DNA from: Ruminococcus sp.
GTDB lineage: Bacteria > Bacillota > Clostridia > Oscillospirales > Ruminococcaceae
Direction: 5' to 3'
Length of the DNA: 58,560 nt
Assembly: GCA_017478965.1 (NCBI GenBank)
Contig: JAFVCV010000051.1
Coordinates: 1-58,560 of the forward strand
Shown here in pieces: positions 23,339 to 38,473 of the stretch (position 1 is the first letter of the stretch; each line of letters starts with the position of its first letter). Under the pieces are notes generated by a model. The model saw only the letters and a list, made by a program, of their open reading frames with translations. It was not told where the DNA came from and did no database searches. The position numbers were made by a program, and so were the translations under genes.

Positions 23339-24613
23339 ATGGACGTTAAAGAAGAGGTATACAAGCTGAAAAAAGTTTCGCCTGTGCTGGCTGCTTCGCC
23401 GGCAGAGCTGAGAAACGCCGCTCTTGAAAGGGTGGCCGTGCTGCTGGAGGAGCATAAGGAGGAGGTCTTTGAGGAGAACCGGAAGGACCTGGCAGCGGCG
23501 GAGGACAACAATGTATCTGCGGCCGTGGCCAAAAGGCTTAAATTTGACGAGGGCAAGCTCGCCGCCTCGGTCCAGGGACTGAGACAGCTGATCGGCCTGG
23601 ATGATCCGCTCAACAAGACCACCCTGGCAAGACAGCTCGACGAAGGGCTGATACTCAGAAGAGTGACCTGCCCTATTGGTGTTATCGGTGTAATTTTCGA
23701 GGCCAGGCCCGATGCGCTGATACAGATATCCTCCCTGTGCATCAAAAGCGGCAACTGCGCCGTGCTAAAGGGCGGCAAGGAGACTGCCTGCACAAACCGC
23801 ATACTTTTCAGCATAATAAAGCAGGGGGTCACTGAGGCGGGCCTGCCGGAGAACTGTATGCTCCAGGTGGAGCTGCACAACGAGATAGACGAGCTGCTGG
23901 AATGCGACGGCTGCGTGGACCTGCTCATACCCAGGGGGTCCAACAAGTTCGTGCAGTATATAATGAATAATACGAAGATACCCGTTATGGGCCATGCGGA
24001 CGGCATATGCCATATCTATACCGACAAGGCTGCCGACCTTGAAAAGGCCTTGAGGATAATCATTGACGCCAAGACTCAGTACACTGCTGCCTGCAATGCT
24101 GTGGAGACGCTGCTCGTCCATAAGGATATTGCGCCGGAGTTTCTGCCTATGCTGGCCAGGGCCGCCCGGAATGCCGGCATCACTCTAAGGGGTACCGCTG
24201 CGGTGACGGAGCTTATCGGCGGGGAGACTATCACAGTGGCTGATTTCAGGGAGTATCTTGACCTGACGGCTTAGGTGGACATCGTTGACGACATCGACAG
24301 TGCTGTTTCACATATCAACACCTACGGTTCACACCATACTGACGCCATCATCACCGAAGATAAGGCTGCTGCGGAGCATTTCATGCAGCTGGTGGATTCC
24401 GCCGGGGTATACTGCAACTGCTCCACCAGATTTGCCGACGGTTTCAGGTACGGTTTCGGCGCTGAGGTGGGCATAAGCACCGGCAAGATACACGCAAGAG
24501 GCCCTGTGGGGCTGGAGGGCCTGGTGACCTATAAGTACAAGCTCTACGGCACGGACCAGATAGTGGCAGACTACGCCGAGGGGAGAAAGCATTTCGATTT
24601 CAAAGATCTGTAA
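23339..24613 (+). pseudogene. proA: Gamma-glutamyl phosphate reductase interrupted by an in-frame amber stop
   Basis: The two halves join in one frame to a full-length ProA of 423 residues plus the stop position. ProA reduces gamma-glutamyl phosphate to glutamate semialdehyde in proline synthesis. The first half (23339-24274, 311 residues) contains NAD(P)-binding parts, GVIFEARPDAL and the catalytic Cys in YTAACNAVET. The second half (24275-24613, 112 residues) has [25 protein letters not shown] and [17 protein letters not shown]. The only fault is TAG at 24272-24274, where Bacillus ProA has Ser in LILSVKVV; TCG to TAG is one base. A GTG follows the stop directly, so weak restart is conceivable. 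No proB is nearby. It could be a real mutation, an assembly error or a split gene. Confidence 0.8.
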
Positions 24614-27981: not shown

Positions 27982-30141
27982 TCATTCAGCCAGAGCAGGC
28001 ACAACGCCTTCATGCCACAGGACCTCAGCCAGGTCCTCACTTTCGTCAAGTGTCTTTGGCTCGTCAAGATAATTGCGCATACTTCCAAGTGCGATGGCAA
28101 TTGTGGAAGTATTGTGCAGGAAAGCCGAAGAGGTGGGCGCAAGTACGCCTGCGGCCCCCAGTACCATGAGACTGAAATTAAAGCCGATGATCGTCCTGTA
28201 ATTCAGGTCTATCCTTTCCATCAGCCTTATGCTCAGCTTTTTGAGTCTTACCAGACATTCCAGGTCCTCGGCGGAAATGGTGATGTCAGCCACCTCTCTT
28301 GCTATGGCGGCACCGGTGCTTATGGCGACCCCGGCGTCGGCCTCGGAAAGGGCAGGGGAGTCGTTGACCCCGTCGCCTACCATTATGACCTTATGTCCGT
28401 TTTGCCGTTCACGCCTGATGAATCCGGCCTTGTCCTCCGGCAGGACCTCCGCATAGAATTCGTCCGCCCCCACAGCCTCGGCCACGGCCTTTGCGGTCCT
28501 CCTGCTGTCGCCTGTCATCATCACTACCCGCTTTATGCCAAGGCCTTTGAGCTGTCTGAGCACGGTGCGAGCCTCTTTCCTGATGGGGTCCTCTATACAG
28601 ATCACCGCAGCCAGCTCGCCGCCCACAGCCAGGTAAAGATGAGAATACCTGTCAGGAAGCTGTCTGAACTTCTCTTCCTCGCCCTGGGGTATCTTACAGT
28701 CCTCGTCCTCAAAGATGAAGTGGCTGCTGCCGATAAGGGCTTTCTTTCCGTCTATGGAGCTAGAAATGCCATGGGCCACCACGTATTCCACCCTGGAATG
28801 GCGCTCCTCATGGTCAAGGCCCTTGTCCTTGGCGGCCTTTACCACCGCATTGGCGATGGAGTGGGGATAATGCTCCTCCAGGCAGGCGGCCAGTCTCAGG
28901 ACCTCGTCCTCATCGTTCCCTCCGAAGGGTATGACCTTAGCGACCGTGGGCGTCGAATGAGTCAGGGTCCCGGTCTTATCAAAAACTATGGTGTCGGCTT
29001 CGGCTACTGCTTCCAGGAACTTTCCGCCCTTTACTGTCATGCCAAGGCTGCTGCCCTCTCTCATGGCGGAGATGACAGATATAGGCATAGCCAGCTTCAG
29101 CGCACAGGAGAAGTCCACCATCAGTATGGAGATGGCTTTGGTGGCGTTCCTTGTCAGCAGATATGTCAGCAGCGTCCCTCCCAGGCAGTAGGGCACCAGC
29201 TTGTCGGCCAGGTGGTCGGCTTTGCTCTCAGCGGAGGATTTAAGCTTTTCGCTCTCCTCTATCATCTTGACTATCCGGTCATATTTTCCGCTGCCGGTGA
29301 GCTTGTCAACGCTTACGGTACAGCTGCCCTGCTCCACAACAGTCCCGGCATATACATAGCTGCCCGCAGCCTTATGGACAGGCAGAGCCTCCCCGGTCAG
29401 CGAGGCCTGATTGACCTCAGCGTCACCCTCAACGACCTTGCCGTCCAGAGGTATCATGCTGCCGGTCCTGACTACGATCTCATCGCCCAGCTTTACCTGC
29501 TTTATAGGTATAAGTACCTCGGTGCCGCCGGTCCTTACCCAGACCTTATCCACACCCAGAGACATGGTCCTGGCCAGGTCGTCCACCGAACGCTTGTGGG
29601 TCCAGTCCTCCAGCATCTCCCCTAATTTCAGCAGGAACATCACAGAGGATGCGGTCTTCTGGTCGCCCCTTATGAGAGAGACAGTGATAGCGGTGGCGTC
29701 AAGAATAGACACCTCTATCTTGCCCCTTGCGATCGACCTGAGTGCCTCCCTTATATAGCCCGAGGCTTTAACTATGGACATAGCCAGCCTTATCGGCGCC
29801 GGGAGTATCCTCTTGCCTATGAACCTTTTAACAAGAGAATAGAAAAGCTTGTCCTCGAACTCCCTGTCCAGTGCCCTGCCAGTGTGCTCCGGGACCAGGG
29901 CGGCGTTCTCAGGGTCGCTGAAAGAAAACTTCGCCAGGGCCTTTATGACCCTTTCCCTGTCGCTTTTATGCAAAAAGAATATAACTGCGTCCCCGGTCCT
30001 GTCATAGACCCTGACGTCCTTGACAAAAGGCTTGCTCCTGAGATAATACTCCAGCACATCCGCATCGGAAAGAGACATTTTCTTTCCGAGCACCCTTACC
30101 CGGAGCCGGCCCTTTGAGCTATGGAGTATCCTGCATCTCAT
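27982..30141 (-). CDS. P1B-6-like heavy-metal P-type ATPase (ferrosome FezB-like)
   Basis: A 719-residue P-type ATPase. Residues 1-100 look like a degenerate metal-associated domain without CxxC. Seen: TGEALP (249-254), intramembrane motif S345-C346-A347-L, phosphorylation site D388 in DKTGTLT, EEHYPHSIANA in place of the usual HP motif, MTGD, and GDGVNDSPAL. The SCA membrane motif is the one assigned to subgroup P1B-6, whose members FezB build iron-storing ferrosomes in several anaerobes (family knowledge). Typical CPC, CPH or SPC motifs are absent. The start overlaps the preceding gene by four bases, so both are translationally coupled. Metal specificity (iron) is inference. Confidence 0.85.
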   Translation of the reverse strand: MRCRILHSSKGRLRVRVLGKKMSLSDADVLEYYLRSKPFVKDVRVYDRTGDAVIFFLHKSDRERVIKALAKFSFSDPENAALVPEHTGRALDREFEDKLFYSLVKRFIGKRILPAPIRLAMSIVKASGYIREALRSIARGKIEVSILDATAITVSLIRGDQKTASSVMFLLKLGEMLEDWTHKRSVDDLARTMSLGVDKVWVRTGGTEVLIPIKQVKLGDEIVVRTGSMIPLDGKVVEGDAEVNQASLTGEALPVHKAAGSYVYAGTVVEQGSCTVSVDKLTGSGKYDRIVKMIEESEKLKSSAESKADHLADKLVPYCLGGTLLTYLLTRNATKAISILMVDFSCALKLAMPISVISAMREGSSLGMTVKGGKFLEAVAEADTIVFDKTGTLTHSTPTVAKVIPFGGNDEDEVLRLAACLEEHYPHSIANAVVKAAKDKGLDHEERHSRVEYVVAHGISSSIDGKKALIGSSHFIFEDEDCKIPQGEEEKFRQLPDRYSHLYLAVGGELAAVICIEDPIRKEARTVLRQLKGLGIKRVVMMTGDSRRTAKAVAEAVGADEFYAEVLPEDKAGFIRRERQNGHKVIMVGDGVNDSPALSEADAGVAISTGAAIAREVADITISAEDLECLVRLKKLSIRLMERIDLNYRTIIGFNFSLMVLGAAGVLAPTSSAFLHNTSTIAIALGSMRNYLDEPKTLDESEDLAEVLWHEGVVPALAE

Positions 30142-30431
30142 TTTTCAGTCTCGTCCTTGTCTTCGCTCTCGTCCTCGATGATATCTTCCTTTTCACAGCA
30201 GCACTTTTCCTTCTGCATCTTCTCGTTTATATCCTTAGCGTCAGACAGGATATCTCCGCAGCCTTCACGAACGGCAGTAACGCCCTCCATGACAGCGTCC
30301 TTGCAACGGATAGCAGCGGCCGTCGTGTGGGCATAGACCTTCTTTGCGGTCTTGCTGGAAAGGATCTTAACGCCTGCGGTAGAAAAAAGCATACCGCCTA
30401 TAAAAACTACTGATTTTCCTAAAATGCTCAT
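30138..30431 (-). CDS. Small membrane-associated protein paired with the P1B-ATPase
   Basis: A 97-residue protein. It has a glycine-containing hydrophobic N-terminus (about 4-25, VVFIGGMLFSTAGVKIL), an amphipathic central helix (about 30-70), then a C-terminal tail with three Cys in a row (CCC) and mostly acidic residues (EDESEDKDE). The layout resembles small proteins of the DUF6110/YtxH kind that accompany P1B-6 ATPases and could be the local counterpart of the small Fez proteins (inference). The ATGA overlap with the ATPase start supports joint function. An AAAGGACG site precedes the ATG. The Cys/acid tail could bind metal. Confidence 0.7.
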   Translation of the reverse strand: MSILGKSVVFIGGMLFSTAGVKILSSKTAKKVYAHTTAAAIRCKDAVMEGVTAVREGCGDILSDAKDINEKMQKEKCCCEKEDIIEDESEDKDETEK

Positions 30432-30628: not shown

Positions 30629-31378
30629 CTAGATATTCATAGCGTCCATAGCTGTGATGTATTGCAGGTTCGGCACGAAAACGCCCTTGTGCCTGTCGCC
30701 GGTCAGGAACTTTTTTCCGTCCTTGTAGGCCATCAGCTGGGCTATGGGGACCTGGCTCCAGTCGCCGCCGTCCACCGGTGAGGTGGCGAACATCACTCCC
30801 GAGCCGAAGGGCCTCTGGAACATGGTGTCCTTCATATTCTTATGGATATACAAAAGCTCCCCGTCGTATATCATCAGATTCAGCTTGTTCCTCGGGGCCA
30901 TCTCCTTGACGAAGTCGTTTATCAGGGCGAACCTGCCCTCGGCGCTGAGACTGCCCCAGGTCTGGGCGCTGTTGACAGTCTCCATAAGATAAAGGAACAG
31001 TCTTTCTGAGTCGGTGTCGCCCTTCTGTCTTGAAAGCATCGGTATGAGCCTGCTGCCGGAATAGATGGTGCCGTTATGGATGAGGGTCCAGGTCCGGCCG
31101 GTGATATCGCTGCCGGAGAAGGGGTGGCAGTTCACTTCTTTCACAGAGCCTACGGTAGCAAATCTTATATGGCCTAAAAGGGTCTTCTGGGGACCTAGCC
31201 CGTCAATGAGCTTTTTTAGCCTGGGGCTGTCTATGGCCCTGATGCCCTCGTGAACGGTGCCGCACCCGTGCATCATTCCCCAGCCGTGGGGGTGTCTGAC
31301 GCTGTGAGAATAGAACTCTCTCAGCTCAGCCCTTATATCCGTTGGTCCTGCGGCGCTAAAGCCGAACAGCTCGCACAT
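30629..31378 (-). CDS. Class II glutamine amidotransferase, EgtC/DUG3/YafJ-like
   Basis: A 249-residue N-terminal-nucleophile hydrolase with catalytic Cys2 directly after the start Met (MCELFGF). Other family marks: GWGMM, HIRFATVG, NCHPF, LIHNGTI and GDTDSERLF. Such stand-alone GATase II proteins hydrolyse gamma-glutamyl bonds in known cases: EgtC in ergothioneine synthesis and DUG3 in glutathione breakdown. It is the last gene of a tight operon with two gamma-glutamyl ligase-family genes, 13 bases after the previous stop, so a gamma-glutamyl substrate is very plausible (inference). Confidence 0.85.
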   Translation of the reverse strand: MCELFGFSAAGPTDIRAELREFYSHSVRHPHGWGMMHGCGTVHEGIRAIDSPRLKKLIDGLGPQKTLLGHIRFATVGSVKEVNCHPFSGSDITGRTWTLIHNGTIYSGSRLIPMLSRQKGDTDSERLFLYLMETVNSAQTWGSLSAEGRFALINDFVKEMAPRNKLNLMIYDGELLYIHKNMKDTMFQRPFGSGVMFATSPVDGGDWSQVPIAQLMAYKDGKKFLTGDRHKGVFVPNLQYITAMDAMNI

Positions 31379-31391
31379 TTTTCATCGCCTC

Positions 31392-32552
31392 TTATCCATA
31401 GATATGCACAGGGTCGATAAGCGTGCATAGCCGCTTTCTGAGTTTCTCCTTTTCGTATTCAAGAACTTCCTGTGCTTTGTTGTCTGATCTGAAGGTCTTC
31501 TGCATTTCCGTGATGATCTGCCCGGCCCTTTCCAGTATGGGCACGCCCTGTATCTCTACGCCGGAAAGGTCGTAAAGGGCGGCGGCACGGTGGTCCCTGA
31601 CTGCCTGCTCCTGCATTTCGGGGGTGAAGTCCACATCAGGCAGACGGCTCAGATACATTATCAGCAGATGGGTGAATTGAAGGTCGTTACTGTTTATCCC
31701 AAGAGGTTCCAGGGGGTCAAGGTCAAACATTCTCAGCTCCACATGGCTTATCCCCTTTCGCAGGGCCTCAACGCTGTTGACGCCCACAGGTTTGAGTCTT
31801 ATGGGGAGGTAAAGCTCGCTTATGGAGAACAGCAGCCCTTTCTGGATATAGCGTTCGATACTTCCGCAAAGGCTTTCCAGGCTGGAAAGATCAAGTACAG
31901 GTGTGAACTCGTTCCAGTAGCCCCGCTCAGAGTTCCTGATAGAAGCATACGGGCTTTTCACCGTCCCCTCCGCTCCGTCACGGTCGAAGGAAAGGTCGTA
32001 GAACGGGCTTGCGGCAGAGATCAGCATAGGCAGCCAGCTATGGATAGACAGCTGCTTATAGAGCCTGAGATAAAAGCTGTTCCTGAACTCCGTCAGTTCC
32101 TGTCCGCCGCTTATGGAGGCAAGATACCCGTCGGTGAAAGAAAAATTGAAATGTATCCCCGAGAACAGCATAAGTTTCTTGCCGTAGCGCATTGATAGCT
32201 GCTCACGGTAGTGCAGTTTACCGATATGCTCACCCGAAAAGGCTGCCACCGGTATCTCATCTTCTCCGGTGATATGGGGAGGATTGCTGTAGAGCCAGAG
32301 CCGTTCTCCCTGTTTTTCAAGCTTTTCCCTGACCCGGCGGTCAAGGCCCTCAAGCTCCCTGAGCATCTCGTCGATGCTCCCGCACACCGGGGTGATGAGC
32401 TCGATCTGGTTCTCACAGAAGTCCCGGGTTATGCCCGGTTCCTCACCGAAAGGGTGAGGGGTCATGGCCAGCCTGCCGAAGCGGTCCACTCTCAGGGTTT
32501 CCCTTTCCAGTCCGAAATTTCCTTCAAAAAATGATCTGTCGTTCATATCCAT
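31392..32552 (-). CDS. Glutamate-cysteine ligase family protein, GshA type I
   Basis: A 386-residue protein resembling the gamma-glutamylcysteine synthetase of E. coli GshA and the N-terminal half of GshAB. Seen: FGLERETLRVDRFGRLAMTP, the ITRDFCENQIELITPV metal and substrate region, and GIHFNFSF. It is shorter than E. coli GshA (about 518), and no GshB-like ATP-grasp domain follows. The start is placed at 32552 (MDMNDRSF), 13 bases after the upstream stop. It ligates an amine to the gamma-carboxyl of Glu in known members; cysteine as partner is not assured. Middle gene of the three-gene operon. Confidence 0.82.
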   Translation of the reverse strand: MDMNDRSFFEGNFGLERETLRVDRFGRLAMTPHPFGEEPGITRDFCENQIELITPVCGSIDEMLRELEGLDRRVREKLEKQGERLWLYSNPPHITGEDEIPVAAFSGEHIGKLHYREQLSMRYGKKLMLFSGIHFNFSFTDGYLASISGGQELTEFRNSFYLRLYKQLSIHSWLPMLISAASPFYDLSFDRDGAEGTVKSPYASIRNSERGYWNEFTPVLDLSSLESLCGSIERYIQKGLLFSISELYLPIRLKPVGVNSVEALRKGISHVELRMFDLDPLEPLGINSNDLQFTHLLIMYLSRLPDVDFTPEMQEQAVRDHRAAALYDLSGVEIQGVPILERAGQIITEMQKTFRSDNKAQEVLEYEKEKLRKRLCTLIDPVHIYG

Positions 32553-32565
32553 TGCGGCACGGCCC

Positions 32566-33951
32566 TCACAGCTGAGAATAGCTTTCGATGAATTCACGGA
32601 TATCCACCCCATTTTCAATGCCCCTGACCATCTCACGGGCCGGATTGGTCAGCCGCTCTGCCCGTTCAAACAGTGGGTCAAGGAAATGCTCCTCGTTCTT
32701 CCCACGTTCTTTAAGTCCGCTTCCTGCCAGCTCCAGGATCCTGCAAAGCTGGGCGCTCAGGGCGACCTTGTCTATGAACGGCGGTATCTCACGCTTTGAG
32801 AGCATATCCTGCAGCTCAGCGGCTGTGTAGCCGTGGGAATAGATGAGGGTGTCGTTCTCTATCAGCTCTCTGAGCTCATAGATCTTTCCTGTGAGTCCGG
32901 TGTGGAACGCAGCTACCGTCATAACGTCCCTGATGGGCTGACAGCAGGAGCTGCGGTATTCAATGGTCCCCCGGAAGGTCAGGTCCTCGAACTTGAAGGT
33001 CCTCAGATAGCTAAGATCTCCGTCCTCCGGAGTGAATTCCACGCTCCGGTAGGCCTGGCCGTCAAAGTATTCTCCGCAGACCTTGTCCAGCCCGAAATAG
33101 TCCCTTACGGCCGTGGGTCTGAAGTCTATGTACCTGCCCTCACGCATCGTACAGTACACCGACTGTGACTTTATATATTCCAGCAGCTCGTCTATATTAT
33201 TTAGTCTCTGGGAAAACATACCGATATTATGGGGATTGTAACCCTGCATACTTCTTTCCCACAGCATATTCCTTGCGCAAAGGTAGTCCGGATATTCCGG
33301 CAGGTAGGAATTGGCAAAGAGCAGGGCCTTATAAGGCTCCAGCATACCGAAGATATTCAGGGTGTCGATGAGGCTGTCATGCTCCACGTCCAGCTGCACC
33401 TGGGAGGCGCTGGTAAAGGTGCCGAAATCAGGCCTGTCGTGGAACCGCATATTGATGCTGTTCTCATATTTATGATAAGAATGGAGGTAGTGATAGAGCA
33501 TCCTGTACCTCTCGTTCGGCACCGGTCGGTTGTGGTTTACATTATACCCCGGGTTTATGCCCATGCCGGTCAGGGTAGATCCTGCGGCGCCAAGCTTATC
33601 CTGGAGAAAGATGTAATAGTCCCTGAAACGGCCGTAAAGCTCGTTCAGATCGCTGCCCTTCCCCATTGACAGCTCCAGATTTGAATAGGAACAGTCGAAG
33701 GACAGATTGTCCCCGGACACCGGCTCGGTCATAGAATTGACGCAGCCGTCGTCATCAGTGCCGGTTATCTCAAAAGCGAAATGCTCTCTGAACGCTCCTG
33801 CGGCATTGATGACCTCCTCCTCATTCACCGGTCTGCCGTCGGTCCTTACCACTGGCATTTCTATCTCTATGCCGATGCTGGGTTCTCTATTCCTCAGTGT
33901 GGGTGCAATATATTTATCATAGAGAGCCTCGCTGAGCTTTTCACCGTTCAT
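32566..33951 (-). CDS. Glutamate-cysteine ligase family protein, GCS2/EgtA type
   Basis: A 461-residue protein of the second, distantly related ligase family (GCS2, which includes plant-type GshA and EgtA). Seen: IGIEIEMPVV with acidic metal ligands near the N-terminus, NLELSMG, MRFHDRPDF then ASQVQLDV, and RGTIEYRSSCCQP. Start at 33951 behind AAGGAG; an upstream TTG overlaps that region. It is first in an operon with a type I ligase and a GATase II, under its own strong promoter. Two ligases of different type side by side is unusual and suggests a two-step gamma-glutamyl product (inference). Confidence 0.8.
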   Translation of the reverse strand: MNGEKLSEALYDKYIAPTLRNREPSIGIEIEMPVVRTDGRPVNEEEVINAAGAFREHFAFEITGTDDDGCVNSMTEPVSGDNLSFDCSYSNLELSMGKGSDLNELYGRFRDYYIFLQDKLGAAGSTLTGMGINPGYNVNHNRPVPNERYRMLYHYLHSYHKYENSINMRFHDRPDFGTFTSASQVQLDVEHDSLIDTLNIFGMLEPYKALLFANSYLPEYPDYLCARNMLWERSMQGYNPHNIGMFSQRLNNIDELLEYIKSQSVYCTMREGRYIDFRPTAVRDYFGLDKVCGEYFDGQAYRSVEFTPEDGDLSYLRTFKFEDLTFRGTIEYRSSCCQPIRDVMTVAAFHTGLTGKIYELRELIENDTLIYSHGYTAAELQDMLSKREIPPFIDKVALSAQLCRILELAGSGLKERGKNEEHFLDPLFERAERLTNPAREMVRGIENGVDIREFIESYSQL

Positions 33952-37204: not shown

Positions 37205-38473
37205 TTACAGTGCGGCAAAGGCCTGTTTCAGGTCGTCAAGGATATCCTCCCCGTTCTCAAGGCCTACAGAAAGCCTTATCATGCCGCCGTCGATGCCGGC
37301 AGCGGCCAGCTGTTCGTCAGTGAGCTGTCTGTGGGTAGCGGAGGCCGGGTGCAGCACGCAGGTGCGGATATCAGCCACATGGACCTCGTTGGAGGCCAGT
37401 TTCAGGCTGTCCATGAACTTAACGGCGGTATCTCTGCCGCCCTTTATGCTGAAACTGATAACGCCGGAGGCTCCCAGGGGCAGATACTTCTGTACCAGGG
37501 GATAGTACTTGTTGCCTTTCAGACCGGGGTAGAACACGGACTCGACCTTGTCATTGCTGTCAAGATATTCAGCCACGATCTTTGCGTTTTCCACATACTG
37601 TTTCATTCTGACCGGCAGTGTCTCCAGGCCCAGGTTGAGCAGGAAGGAGGAGTTAGCGGCAGGATAGCACCCGAAGTCCCTCATCAGCTGCATCCTTGCT
37701 TTGACGATAAAGGGGGCGAAGGGGTATTTTTCGGTGTAGACCGTGCCGTGATAGCTCTCGTCCGGCTCGGTCATGCAAGGGAATTTGCCGCTCTTTGCCC
37801 AGTCGAACTTTCCGCTGTCAACTATAACGCCGCCCACCTGGACCGCATGGCCGTCCATATACTTCGAGGTGGAGTGCATAACGATATCAGCGCCCCACTC
37901 GATGGGCCTGCAAAGGTATGGGGTAGCGAAGGTATTGTCAACTATGAGAGGAACGCCGTTTCTGTGGGCGGCGTCTGCGAACTTTTCGATATCCAGCACC
38001 GTCAGTGCAGGGTTGGCGATCGTCTCGCCGAAGACAAGCTTTGTGTTGGGCTTGAATGCAGCGTCAAGCTCCTCAGCGGTGCAGTCCGGGTCAACGAATA
38101 TGCACTCTATGCCAAGCCTTTTCATGGTGATATTGAAAAGGTTTATCGTGCCGCCGTAGATGGCAGTAGAGGATATAAAGCTGTCGCCGGCCTGGCAGAT
38201 ATTGAGTATGCAGCACAGTGTAGCGGCCTGTCCCGAAGAGGTACACATTGCGGCCACACCGCCTTCGAGAGCTGCTATCTTCTTCTCCACTGCGTCGGTG
38301 GTGGGGTTCTCGAACCTGGAATATATCAGGCTCCTCGTGGGGTCGTCAAATACTGCGGCGACCTCGTCGGTGGAATCATATACATAGGTGGTGCTCTGTA
38401 CTATCGGCACGACTCTCGGCTCGCCGTTCTTAGGCTTATAGCCTTCGTGCAGACATTGTGTTTCGATCTTCAT
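37205..38473 (-). CDS. metY: O-acetylhomoserine sulfhydrylase
   Basis: A 422-residue PLP enzyme of the Cys/Met metabolism family, which makes homocysteine from O-acetylhomoserine and sulfide. Seen: start IETQCLHEGY, the STTYVYDSTDE strand, YSRFENPT, VDNTFATPY, and the PLP lysine in HSTSKYMDGH. Its length fits MetY rather than the shorter MetB/MetC. No SAM riboswitch is seen ahead of it. It lies 59 bases after the 219-residue gene and may be read from the purB transcript. AAAGGAAG precedes the ATG. Confidence 0.9.
   Translation of the reverse strand: MKIETQCLHEGYKPKNGEPRVVPIVQSTTYVYDSTDEVAAVFDDPTRSLIYSRFENPTTDAVEKKIAALEGGVAAMCTSSGQAATLCCILNICQAGDSFISSTAIYGGTINLFNITMKRLGIECIFVDPDCTAEELDAAFKPNTKLVFGETIANPALTVLDIEKFADAAHRNGVPLIVDNTFATPYLCRPIEWGADIVMHSTSKYMDGHAVQVGGVIVDSGKFDWAKSGKFPCMTEPDESYHGTVYTEKYPFAPFIVKARMQLMRDFGCYPAANSSFLLNLGLETLPVRMKQYVENAKIVAEYLDSNDKVESVFYPGLKGNKYYPLVQKYLPLGASGVISFSIKGGRDTAVKFMDSLKLASNEVHVADIRTCVLHPASATHRQLTDEQLAAAGIDGGMIRLSVGLENGEDILDDLKQAFAAL

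Follow-up and report, generated by a model that had tools for sequence, protein, structure and literature searches.

An operon of two gamma-glutamyl ligases and a class II glutamine amidotransferase in Ruminococcus, a possible module for capping and uncapping cysteine

The 58,560-nucleotide stretch of Ruminococcus sp. DNA analysed here (contig JAFVCV010000051.1; the window) carries three minus-strand genes, gcs2, gshA and gat, which are predicted to encode two gamma-glutamyl ligases and a class II glutamine amidotransferase (GATase). A first-pass annotation had placed the three genes 13 bases apart, which the gene coordinates confirm for both intergenic gaps, and had proposed a new gamma-glutamyl metabolite or thiol pathway. 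Our preferred reading, to which we give even credence, is that the operon is the two-ligase form of a sulfur-metabolism module, gamma-glutamyl ligase plus class II GATase, that caps and uncaps cysteine. Each reaction, the use of cysteine as substrate and the purpose of the cap are what we infer. The results suggest that sulfur is handled here by a pathway independent of glutathione. The idea of a new pathway agrees with the conserved trio (73 of 95 loci), the lack of a GshB match and the sulfur-related neighbours, but a stand-alone pathway is not supported, as the GATase also pairs with single ligases.

The gcs2 protein scores 27.9 bits against Pfam GCS2 (cut-off 21), and its profile matches the plant glutamate-cysteine ligase 2gwc (E 1.9e-10). 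In an alignment of 45 rows, with relatives down to 28-31% identity, 38 columns are invariant, and residues G27, E29, E31, E331 and R333 do not vary; E29 and E31 are presumably the acidic metal-site pair of the superfamily. GCS2 is thus a predicted gamma-glutamyl ligase whose expected active-site residues are intact. The earlier label "GCS2/EgtA-type" holds for the Pfam family, but the likeness to EgtA is only distant: the window protein has no NCBIfam match at E 0.001, so none to EgtA, and GCS2 shares 18% identity with the EgtA/plant-type ligases described below (95.5% probability in hhalign). The GCS2 half of a fused relative scores 33.9 bits against the plant ligase model TIGR01436.

The gshA protein scores 193 bits against Pfam Glu_cys_ligase (cut-off 27) and 263.4 bits against the GshF model PRK02471 (cut-off 425); the latter match is confined to the N-terminal half of the model, and the frame stops after the ligase domain, the second half of GshF being absent. 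When aligned to E. coli GshA (1v4g; residue numbering derived manually from the coordinates of the chain), it has counterparts of all 11 compared residues (E27, E29, D60, E67, Y131, H150, R235, Y241, Y300, E328 and R330), which do not vary across the 14 diverse rows and which we take, from the E. coli structure, to line the metal and cysteine sites. By sequence, GshA is a type I gamma-glutamylcysteine ligase, closest to the N-terminal half of GshF. The first-pass annotation had allowed that one ligase might be catalytically dead; neither looks so, since the key residues are invariant in both. It had also called the ligases unrelated in type, and they do belong to separate families, but one superfamily fold is presumably common to both.

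The gat protein is a GATase domain alone, of 249 amino acids. It scores 89.5 bits against Pfam GATase_4 (cut-off 23), and residues C2, R72, N102, G103 and D123, whose roles we assume from GlmS, are invariant in 13 of 13 rows; it is a predicted class II glutamine amidotransferase, or N-terminal nucleophile hydrolase, with Cys2. The genome of the window holds one GATase of this family, and two further matches are short segments (26 and 20 bits) in long frames. The best-scoring NCBIfam model is EgtC (45.3 bits, cut-off 218.65; 58.9 and 62.4 bits for relatives), and the amidohydrolase EgtC is among the solved relatives (E 8e-4). Both points argue against a protein that supplies ammonia from glutamine to a partner instead of hydrolysing gamma-glutamyl peptides. 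Such a supply would agree with the fold, which is that of a glutaminase domain, but the domain stands alone and the partner ligases use an amine, and we consider it very improbable. The GATase probably removes the glutamate again from a capped product.

A gcs2 profile search over one genome per species gave 265 relatives, and the record titles of the best 80, which were examined, refer to Ruminococcus, largely of ruminant origin, and to further Clostridia. The window, these 80, four class-level and ten family-level loci make up 95 gcs2 loci. Genes were counted by a six-frame profile search with profiles built partly from the loci counted, where "together" means within 5.5 kb of gcs2 and not strictly adjacent; some of the 80 loci come from genomes that are also in the set of 29 genus genomes used below. 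The six-frame search repeated the count from locus maps, whose longest-open-reading-frame gene picker had missed gcs2 in three loci (L072, L079 and L085). All three genes were together in 73 of the 95 loci, in three gene orders. The order gcs2-gshA-gat was found in 65 (48 plain, 15 with an opposite-strand beta-lactamase-fold gene between gcs2 and gshA, and 2 with the gene just outside), gat-gcs2-gshA in 5 and gshA-gat-gcs2 in 3, while in 4 more a gcs2-gshA pair was cut by the contig end. A quick tree built from all 95 gcs2 proteins requires 25 changes of arrangement, against a mean of 40.7 in shuffles; a single branch separates the gat-first loci, along with L222 and the cut locus L253, from the rest. 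Because GCS2 stays with gshA through three gene orders, it does not seem to be a mere duplicate.

Among the 29 genus genomes, gshA is present in 20 and a strong gat match in the same 20, with full-length gat in 0 of the 9 others (Fisher 1e-7, uncorrected for kinship); the two genes are adjacent in 19 of the 20. gcs2 is found in 16 of the 20 gshA genomes, a remnant in G001 being counted, and in 0 of the 9 others (Fisher 7e-5, also uncorrected for kinship). The gshA genomes without gcs2 are G019 (76% complete), G025 (80%), and G022 and G027 (both 99%). In a second family of the same class (115 genomes), gcs2 is present in 12 genomes, 8 of which have gshA, and gat in 46 at E <=1e-20 (one partial), including all 12 gcs2 genomes (Fisher 6e-6). 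The genomes with gcs2 and gat and no gshA match (G535, G537, G538 and G551) all belong to one genus. Since gcs2 occurs with gat in these four, GCS2 seems not to be strictly dependent on gshA, and since their gcs2 branch is long (1.19 changes per column), its function may have shifted there. Taken together, the co-occurrence counts, the 73 of 95 loci and the tree led us to reject a chance neighbourhood.

Some more distant matches were set aside. The class search returned distant GCS2 proteins (a match in 19 of 26 genomes, 146-228 bits), which were left out; five of their loci were viewed, none with the other parts alongside. GshA-like proteins of about 470-500 amino acids with lower scores (G388 contig 34, and G319) adjoin a gene resembling acyl-acyl-carrier-protein thioesterases (by eye) and were treated as another clade, and a divergent gshA match in a 515-amino-acid frame of G450, treated likewise, was dropped before the Fisher tests. 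Genome G007 holds a gat remnant with residues 3-97 and 219-249 (L145, G007:C15:10805-11163); it has no gshA and keeps the beta-lactamase-fold gene, which suggests that this genome once had the module and lost it.

GATases of the same family also stand behind other ligases. The second family includes 34 gat genomes without gcs2, of which 17 were read together with the second gat of G471, giving 18 loci. In all 18, a ligase of about 406-420 amino acids lies directly upstream of gat, with a coding overlap of 5 or 26 bases. Three of these ligases score 135-151 bits against the plant-type model TIGR01436 and 62-69 bits against EgtA, both below cut-off; the profile for this EgtA/plant type was built from 7 of the 18 loci. 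Genes resembling metN and metI lie just upstream of the ligase-GATase pair in 7 of the 18 loci (by eye), and at L270 Pfam and NCBIfam identify an ATP-binding cassette (ABC) ATPase with a NIL domain, a permease and a MetQ/NlpA lipoprotein. In addition, gat pairs with GshA without GCS2 and with GCS2 without GshA. Because the pairings differ across loci, four ligase sets (EgtA/plant type, GshA, GCS2, and GCS2 with GshA) appear to serve one GATase family, and because the GATase pairs with single ligases of three kinds, the chemistry seems to need one ligase only. This ligase exchange suggests a function for genes annotated as "class II glutamine amidotransferase" in methionine/cysteine operons. 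The EgtA/plant-type pair resembles the trio in its GATase family, in the position of the GATase directly behind a glutamate-cysteine-type ligase and in its sulfur context, whereas it has one ligase of a third family in place of GCS2 and GshA. Among the open-licence PubMed Central titles and abstract openings listed by our searches, no gcs2-gshA-GATase operon or methionine-operon ligase-GATase pair was described. In one genome (L275, G471:C4:171000-184000), the three-gene operon and an EgtA/plant-type ligase-GATase pair lie about 10 kb apart; the EgtA/plant-type ligase of G471 is split over two frames.

That either ligase type, and a third type too, can stand with the GATase alone would also be expected if the product of both ligases is one and the same, gamma-glutamylcysteine, and only kinetics, feedback or regulation set them apart. 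The two should then replace each other, but all 16 gcs2 genomes of the genus also have gshA, and the two are found together through three gene orders; we therefore regard identical products as unlikely. If both ligases do give only gamma-glutamylcysteine, the operon would be a case of unusual but ordinary redundancy.

For 78 of the 80 loci, the genes up to 5 kb away were grouped into clusters. The largest clusters, with counts uncorrected for kinship, were an ABC ATPase cluster holding SufC (20 loci), a cysteine desulfurase/SufS-like cluster (18) and a TcdA/ThiF-like enzyme (14), followed by SufB-like, SufD-like and Rrf2-like proteins (11 each), a second ThiF/MoeB-like protein (10), SufU-like (8), MetY-like and an unassigned 167-amino-acid protein (7 each), and MetK and MetI-like proteins (5 each). 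One example each of SufC, SufS, SufB, SufU, MetK, MetI, MetF and MetE passed the NCBIfam cut-off; the SufD example failed it, and the remaining labels were given by eye. These results show that the neighbours of gcs2 come from cysteine/methionine and iron-sulfur metabolism. Where gshA-gat stands apart from gcs2, it adjoins MetA, a sulfhydrylase and a LysR regulator at L137 (L139 and L149 alike, by eye), lies between SUF-like genes and an Rrf2 regulator with a MetA-like gene at L147, and precedes sufC- and sufB-like genes at L152 and L153. No sulfur-gene neighbour was seen at L151 and L154, two gshA-gat loci without gcs2 on short contig pieces. At L219 (G362:C101:3515-4642), the gene for a HydE-type radical S-adenosylmethionine maturase (544 bits, cut-off 254.6) immediately precedes gshA-gat, and an Rrf2 regulator follows on the other strand.

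In the proposed cysteine-capping module, GshA would couple cysteine to the gamma-carboxyl of glutamate at the expense of ATP, and the resulting gamma-glutamylcysteine would be a capped cysteine, oxidised less readily and hidden from desulfhydrases. The GATase, as a Cys2 N-terminal nucleophile hydrolase, would cut the gamma-glutamyl amide and give free cysteine on demand. That gamma-glutamylcysteine is made and re-opened is the simplest reading. GCS2 would be a second gamma-glutamyl ligase that feeds the same GATase, with another sulfur amino acid or gamma-glutamylcysteine as candidate acceptors, and these compounds may also be substrates of the beta-lactamase-fold protein, whose gene lies elsewhere in the genome of the window but frequently adjoins gshA in relatives. 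Regulation by sulfur status, presumably through Rrf2 or LysR, would keep the ligase and the GATase from opposing each other. Ruminococcus flavefaciens 007c, ATCC 19208 and Y1 (L082, L089 and L098) carry the trio, which makes gamma-glutamyl cysteine storage directly testable; in strains MC2020 and SAb67, gcs2 is the only one of the three genes on the stretch examined.

Several observations weigh against this module. Unless regulated, an operon that encodes both the maker and the cleaver of one bond would waste ATP. gcs2 lies with gat and no gshA beside it in 5 of the 95 loci (4 gcs2-gat, 1 gat-gcs2) and alone in 13 (among them L095, near a contig end 680 bases downstream). Three genus genomes (G005, G011 and G021) carry gshA-gat on a different contig from gcs2, and in G020 gat and gshA are on different contigs. 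Damaged copies were also found: gcs2 as a remnant in G001 and as a broken second copy in G017, gshA with two stops within the profile match in G144, and gat without about 14 residues after Cys2 in G008. The fusion of gcs2 and gshA in one 887-amino-acid frame beside gat, in itself a point in favour of the module, is present in 1 of the 12 gcs2 genomes of its family; since the other 11 lack it, a recent origin or a faulty assembly may explain it. The neighbour counts, too, lack a correction for kinship.

Alternatively, the two ligases could act in series to build a gamma-glutamyl thiol not yet described, such as doubly gamma-glutamylated cysteine or gamma-Glu-Cys-X, with the GCS2-fold ligase replacing the ATP-grasp ligase and the GATase serving turnover. 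In agreement with this, gshA resembles the N-terminal half of GshF and lacks the other half, gcs2 and gshA are fused in one genome, and PF02955 (GshB) was found in 0 of the 29 genus genomes. The genomes divide on the point: in the genus, all 16 genomes with gcs2 also carry gshA, whereas G535, G537, G538 and G551 have gcs2-gat without any gshA match, and G022 and G027, both 99% complete, have gshA-gat without gcs2. Moreover, no GCS2 enzyme is known to us to take a peptide carboxylate. We hold serial action to be possible, if doubtful. If GCS2 does take gamma-glutamylcysteine, the operon would make an undescribed thiol, and the bold reading of the first-pass annotation would be right. A more far-reaching proposal, which we find a shade more doubtful still, is that GshA and GCS2, in one genome as a single fused protein, work in series to build an undescribed thiol that would fill the place of glutathione in rumen Ruminococcus and several related Clostridia and would be recycled by the GATase and the beta-lactamase-fold protein. 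As far as we know, the thiol chemistry of strict anaerobes of the rumen and gut is poorly charted.

The operon was compared with known systems. For glutathione biosynthesis (GshA/GshB or GshF), the ligase is present by sequence and the ATP-grasp glycine ligase was not found: GshB (PF02955), claimed to be absent from the outset, was detected in 0 of the 29 genus genomes by a search that was positive in 9 of 14 controls and did not cover other ATP-grasp families. Because GshB was not found in the 29 genomes, glutathione synthesis was rejected. GshF is a GshA-GshB fusion in some Firmicutes (PMC4360819); the type I ligase of the operon is nearest to its N-terminal half, whereas the operon has no ATP-grasp second half. 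Haloarchaea make gamma-glutamylcysteine, and Methanosphaera and Methanobrevibacter have GshF-like N-terminal ligases (PMC7278568). These systems resemble the operon in its ligase without GshB and in its predicted product, gamma-glutamylcysteine, but the passages of PMC7278568 consulted mention neither a GATase partner nor a second ligase.

EgtD (PF10017), the histidine methyltransferase of ergothioneine synthesis, matched only as segments of about 50 residues (20-23 bits) in 5 of the 29 genomes, two of which, including that of the window, pass the cut-off of 23 when frame neighbours are counted. We read these segments as other methyltransferases, an EgtD being not convincing, and because of this ergothioneine synthesis was set aside. 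Of the earlier claim that EgtB and EgtD are missing, the part on EgtD agrees with this result, but the sulfoxide synthase EgtB was not searched for. EgtA and EgtC are like the operon in joining a glutamate-cysteine ligase, which we take to be of the GCS2 type, to a class II GATase. EgtC removes the gamma-glutamyl group in ergothioneine synthesis (PMC7278568). The trio differs in its second, type I ligase, its sulfur-assimilation neighbours and the lack of a convincing EgtD; its GATase falls far below the EgtC cut-off, and its GCS2 has no EgtA match at E 0.001. The role of EgtC, and its rank as the best NCBIfam model for the GATase, would suit a gamma-glutamyl group that is a temporary cap in making another sulfur metabolite and is removed at the end. 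The low EgtC score and the unconvincing EgtD argue against such a cap, and no carbon-sulfur bond-forming enzyme was recognised among the largest neighbour clusters as accompanying the trio throughout, so that we consider it improbable.

The yeast (Dug2p-Dug3p)2 complex is a class II GATase complex that acts as a gamma-glutamyl hydrolase/transferase on gamma-glutamyl peptides (PMC6508711). The operon GATase is similar as a class II GATase predicted to act on gamma-glutamyl peptides, but it is encoded together with ligases. No Dug2 or Dug1 partner was recognised among the largest recurrent neighbour clusters, and no dedicated search was made.

The beta-lactamase-fold protein scores 77 bits against Pfam, and its SxxK, YSN and KWG motifs are invariant in 21 of 21 rows; no obvious signal peptide was seen by eye. 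Sequence comparison relates it to the solved structures of Lsa45, a class C-related serine hydrolase and 6-aminohexanoate-dimer hydrolase, and it scores 80-104 bits against the NCBIfam model for 3-succinylated cholic acid synthase (cut-off 800). It may be a hydrolase or an acyltransferase. The gene is found (E <1e-50) in 20 of the 20 gshA genus genomes and in 4 of the 9 others (Fisher 0.001), although distant copies are possibly another gene; in the genome of the window, a single distant copy (44% identity) lies outside the contig of the operon (G000:C43:13682-14467). The placement of the gene on the opposite strand between gcs2 and gshA in 15 of the 95 loci makes the operon non-contiguous there and may allow antisense control. 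At L041 (2247-3185), the end of the gene overlaps the end of gcs2 by 26 bases.

The features of the operon are listed below. The strong promoter claimed in the first-pass annotation was found before gcs2 as a sequence match at every consensus position, and an AAGGAG motif lies upstream of the gcs2 ATG. The scan gave 7 promoter-like sites, against 4.4 in shuffles, and 8 terminator-like sites, against 4.0, and a consensus match is not proof of function. The MetY-type sulfhydrylase lies on the same strand, 3.3 kb upstream of gcs2, with secD, secF (named by eye) and one small open reading frame in between.

Table 1. Coordinates of the operon, its signals and the sulfhydrylase gene in the window
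Feature	Position	Strand	Basis
gcs2 (461 amino acids, first gene)	32566-33951	-	Pfam GCS2
gshA (386 amino acids from the ATG at 32552)	31392-32552	-	Pfam Glu_cys_ligase
gat (249 amino acids)	30629-31378	-	Pfam GATase_4
Promoter-like site TTGACA-17-TATAAT	34060-34032	-	12/12 consensus positions, TG before the second hexamer
Intrinsic-terminator-like hairpin after gat	30605-30589	-	5-pair stem and T-run
O-acetylhomoserine/O-acetylserine sulfhydrylase (context only)	37205-38473	-	NCBIfam TIGR01326, 570 bits, cut-off 495

No RNA family at gathering score was found near the operon in the window or in L029, L137, L147 and L152; the only matches were a transfer RNA and a small signal recognition particle RNA, which lie in the window well away from the operon. 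The genes next to the operon (27982-30431, minus strand) encode a DUF6110 protein and a heavy-metal P-type ATPase and have their own full-consensus promoter-like site (30521-30492); relatives of this ATPase were also found in gcs2 loci L035 and L037. Elsewhere in the window, proA (glutamate-5-semialdehyde dehydrogenase; 23339-24613, plus strand) contains an in-frame TAG stop (24272-24274); the parts on either side match proA models, and the stop is either a mutation or an assembly error.

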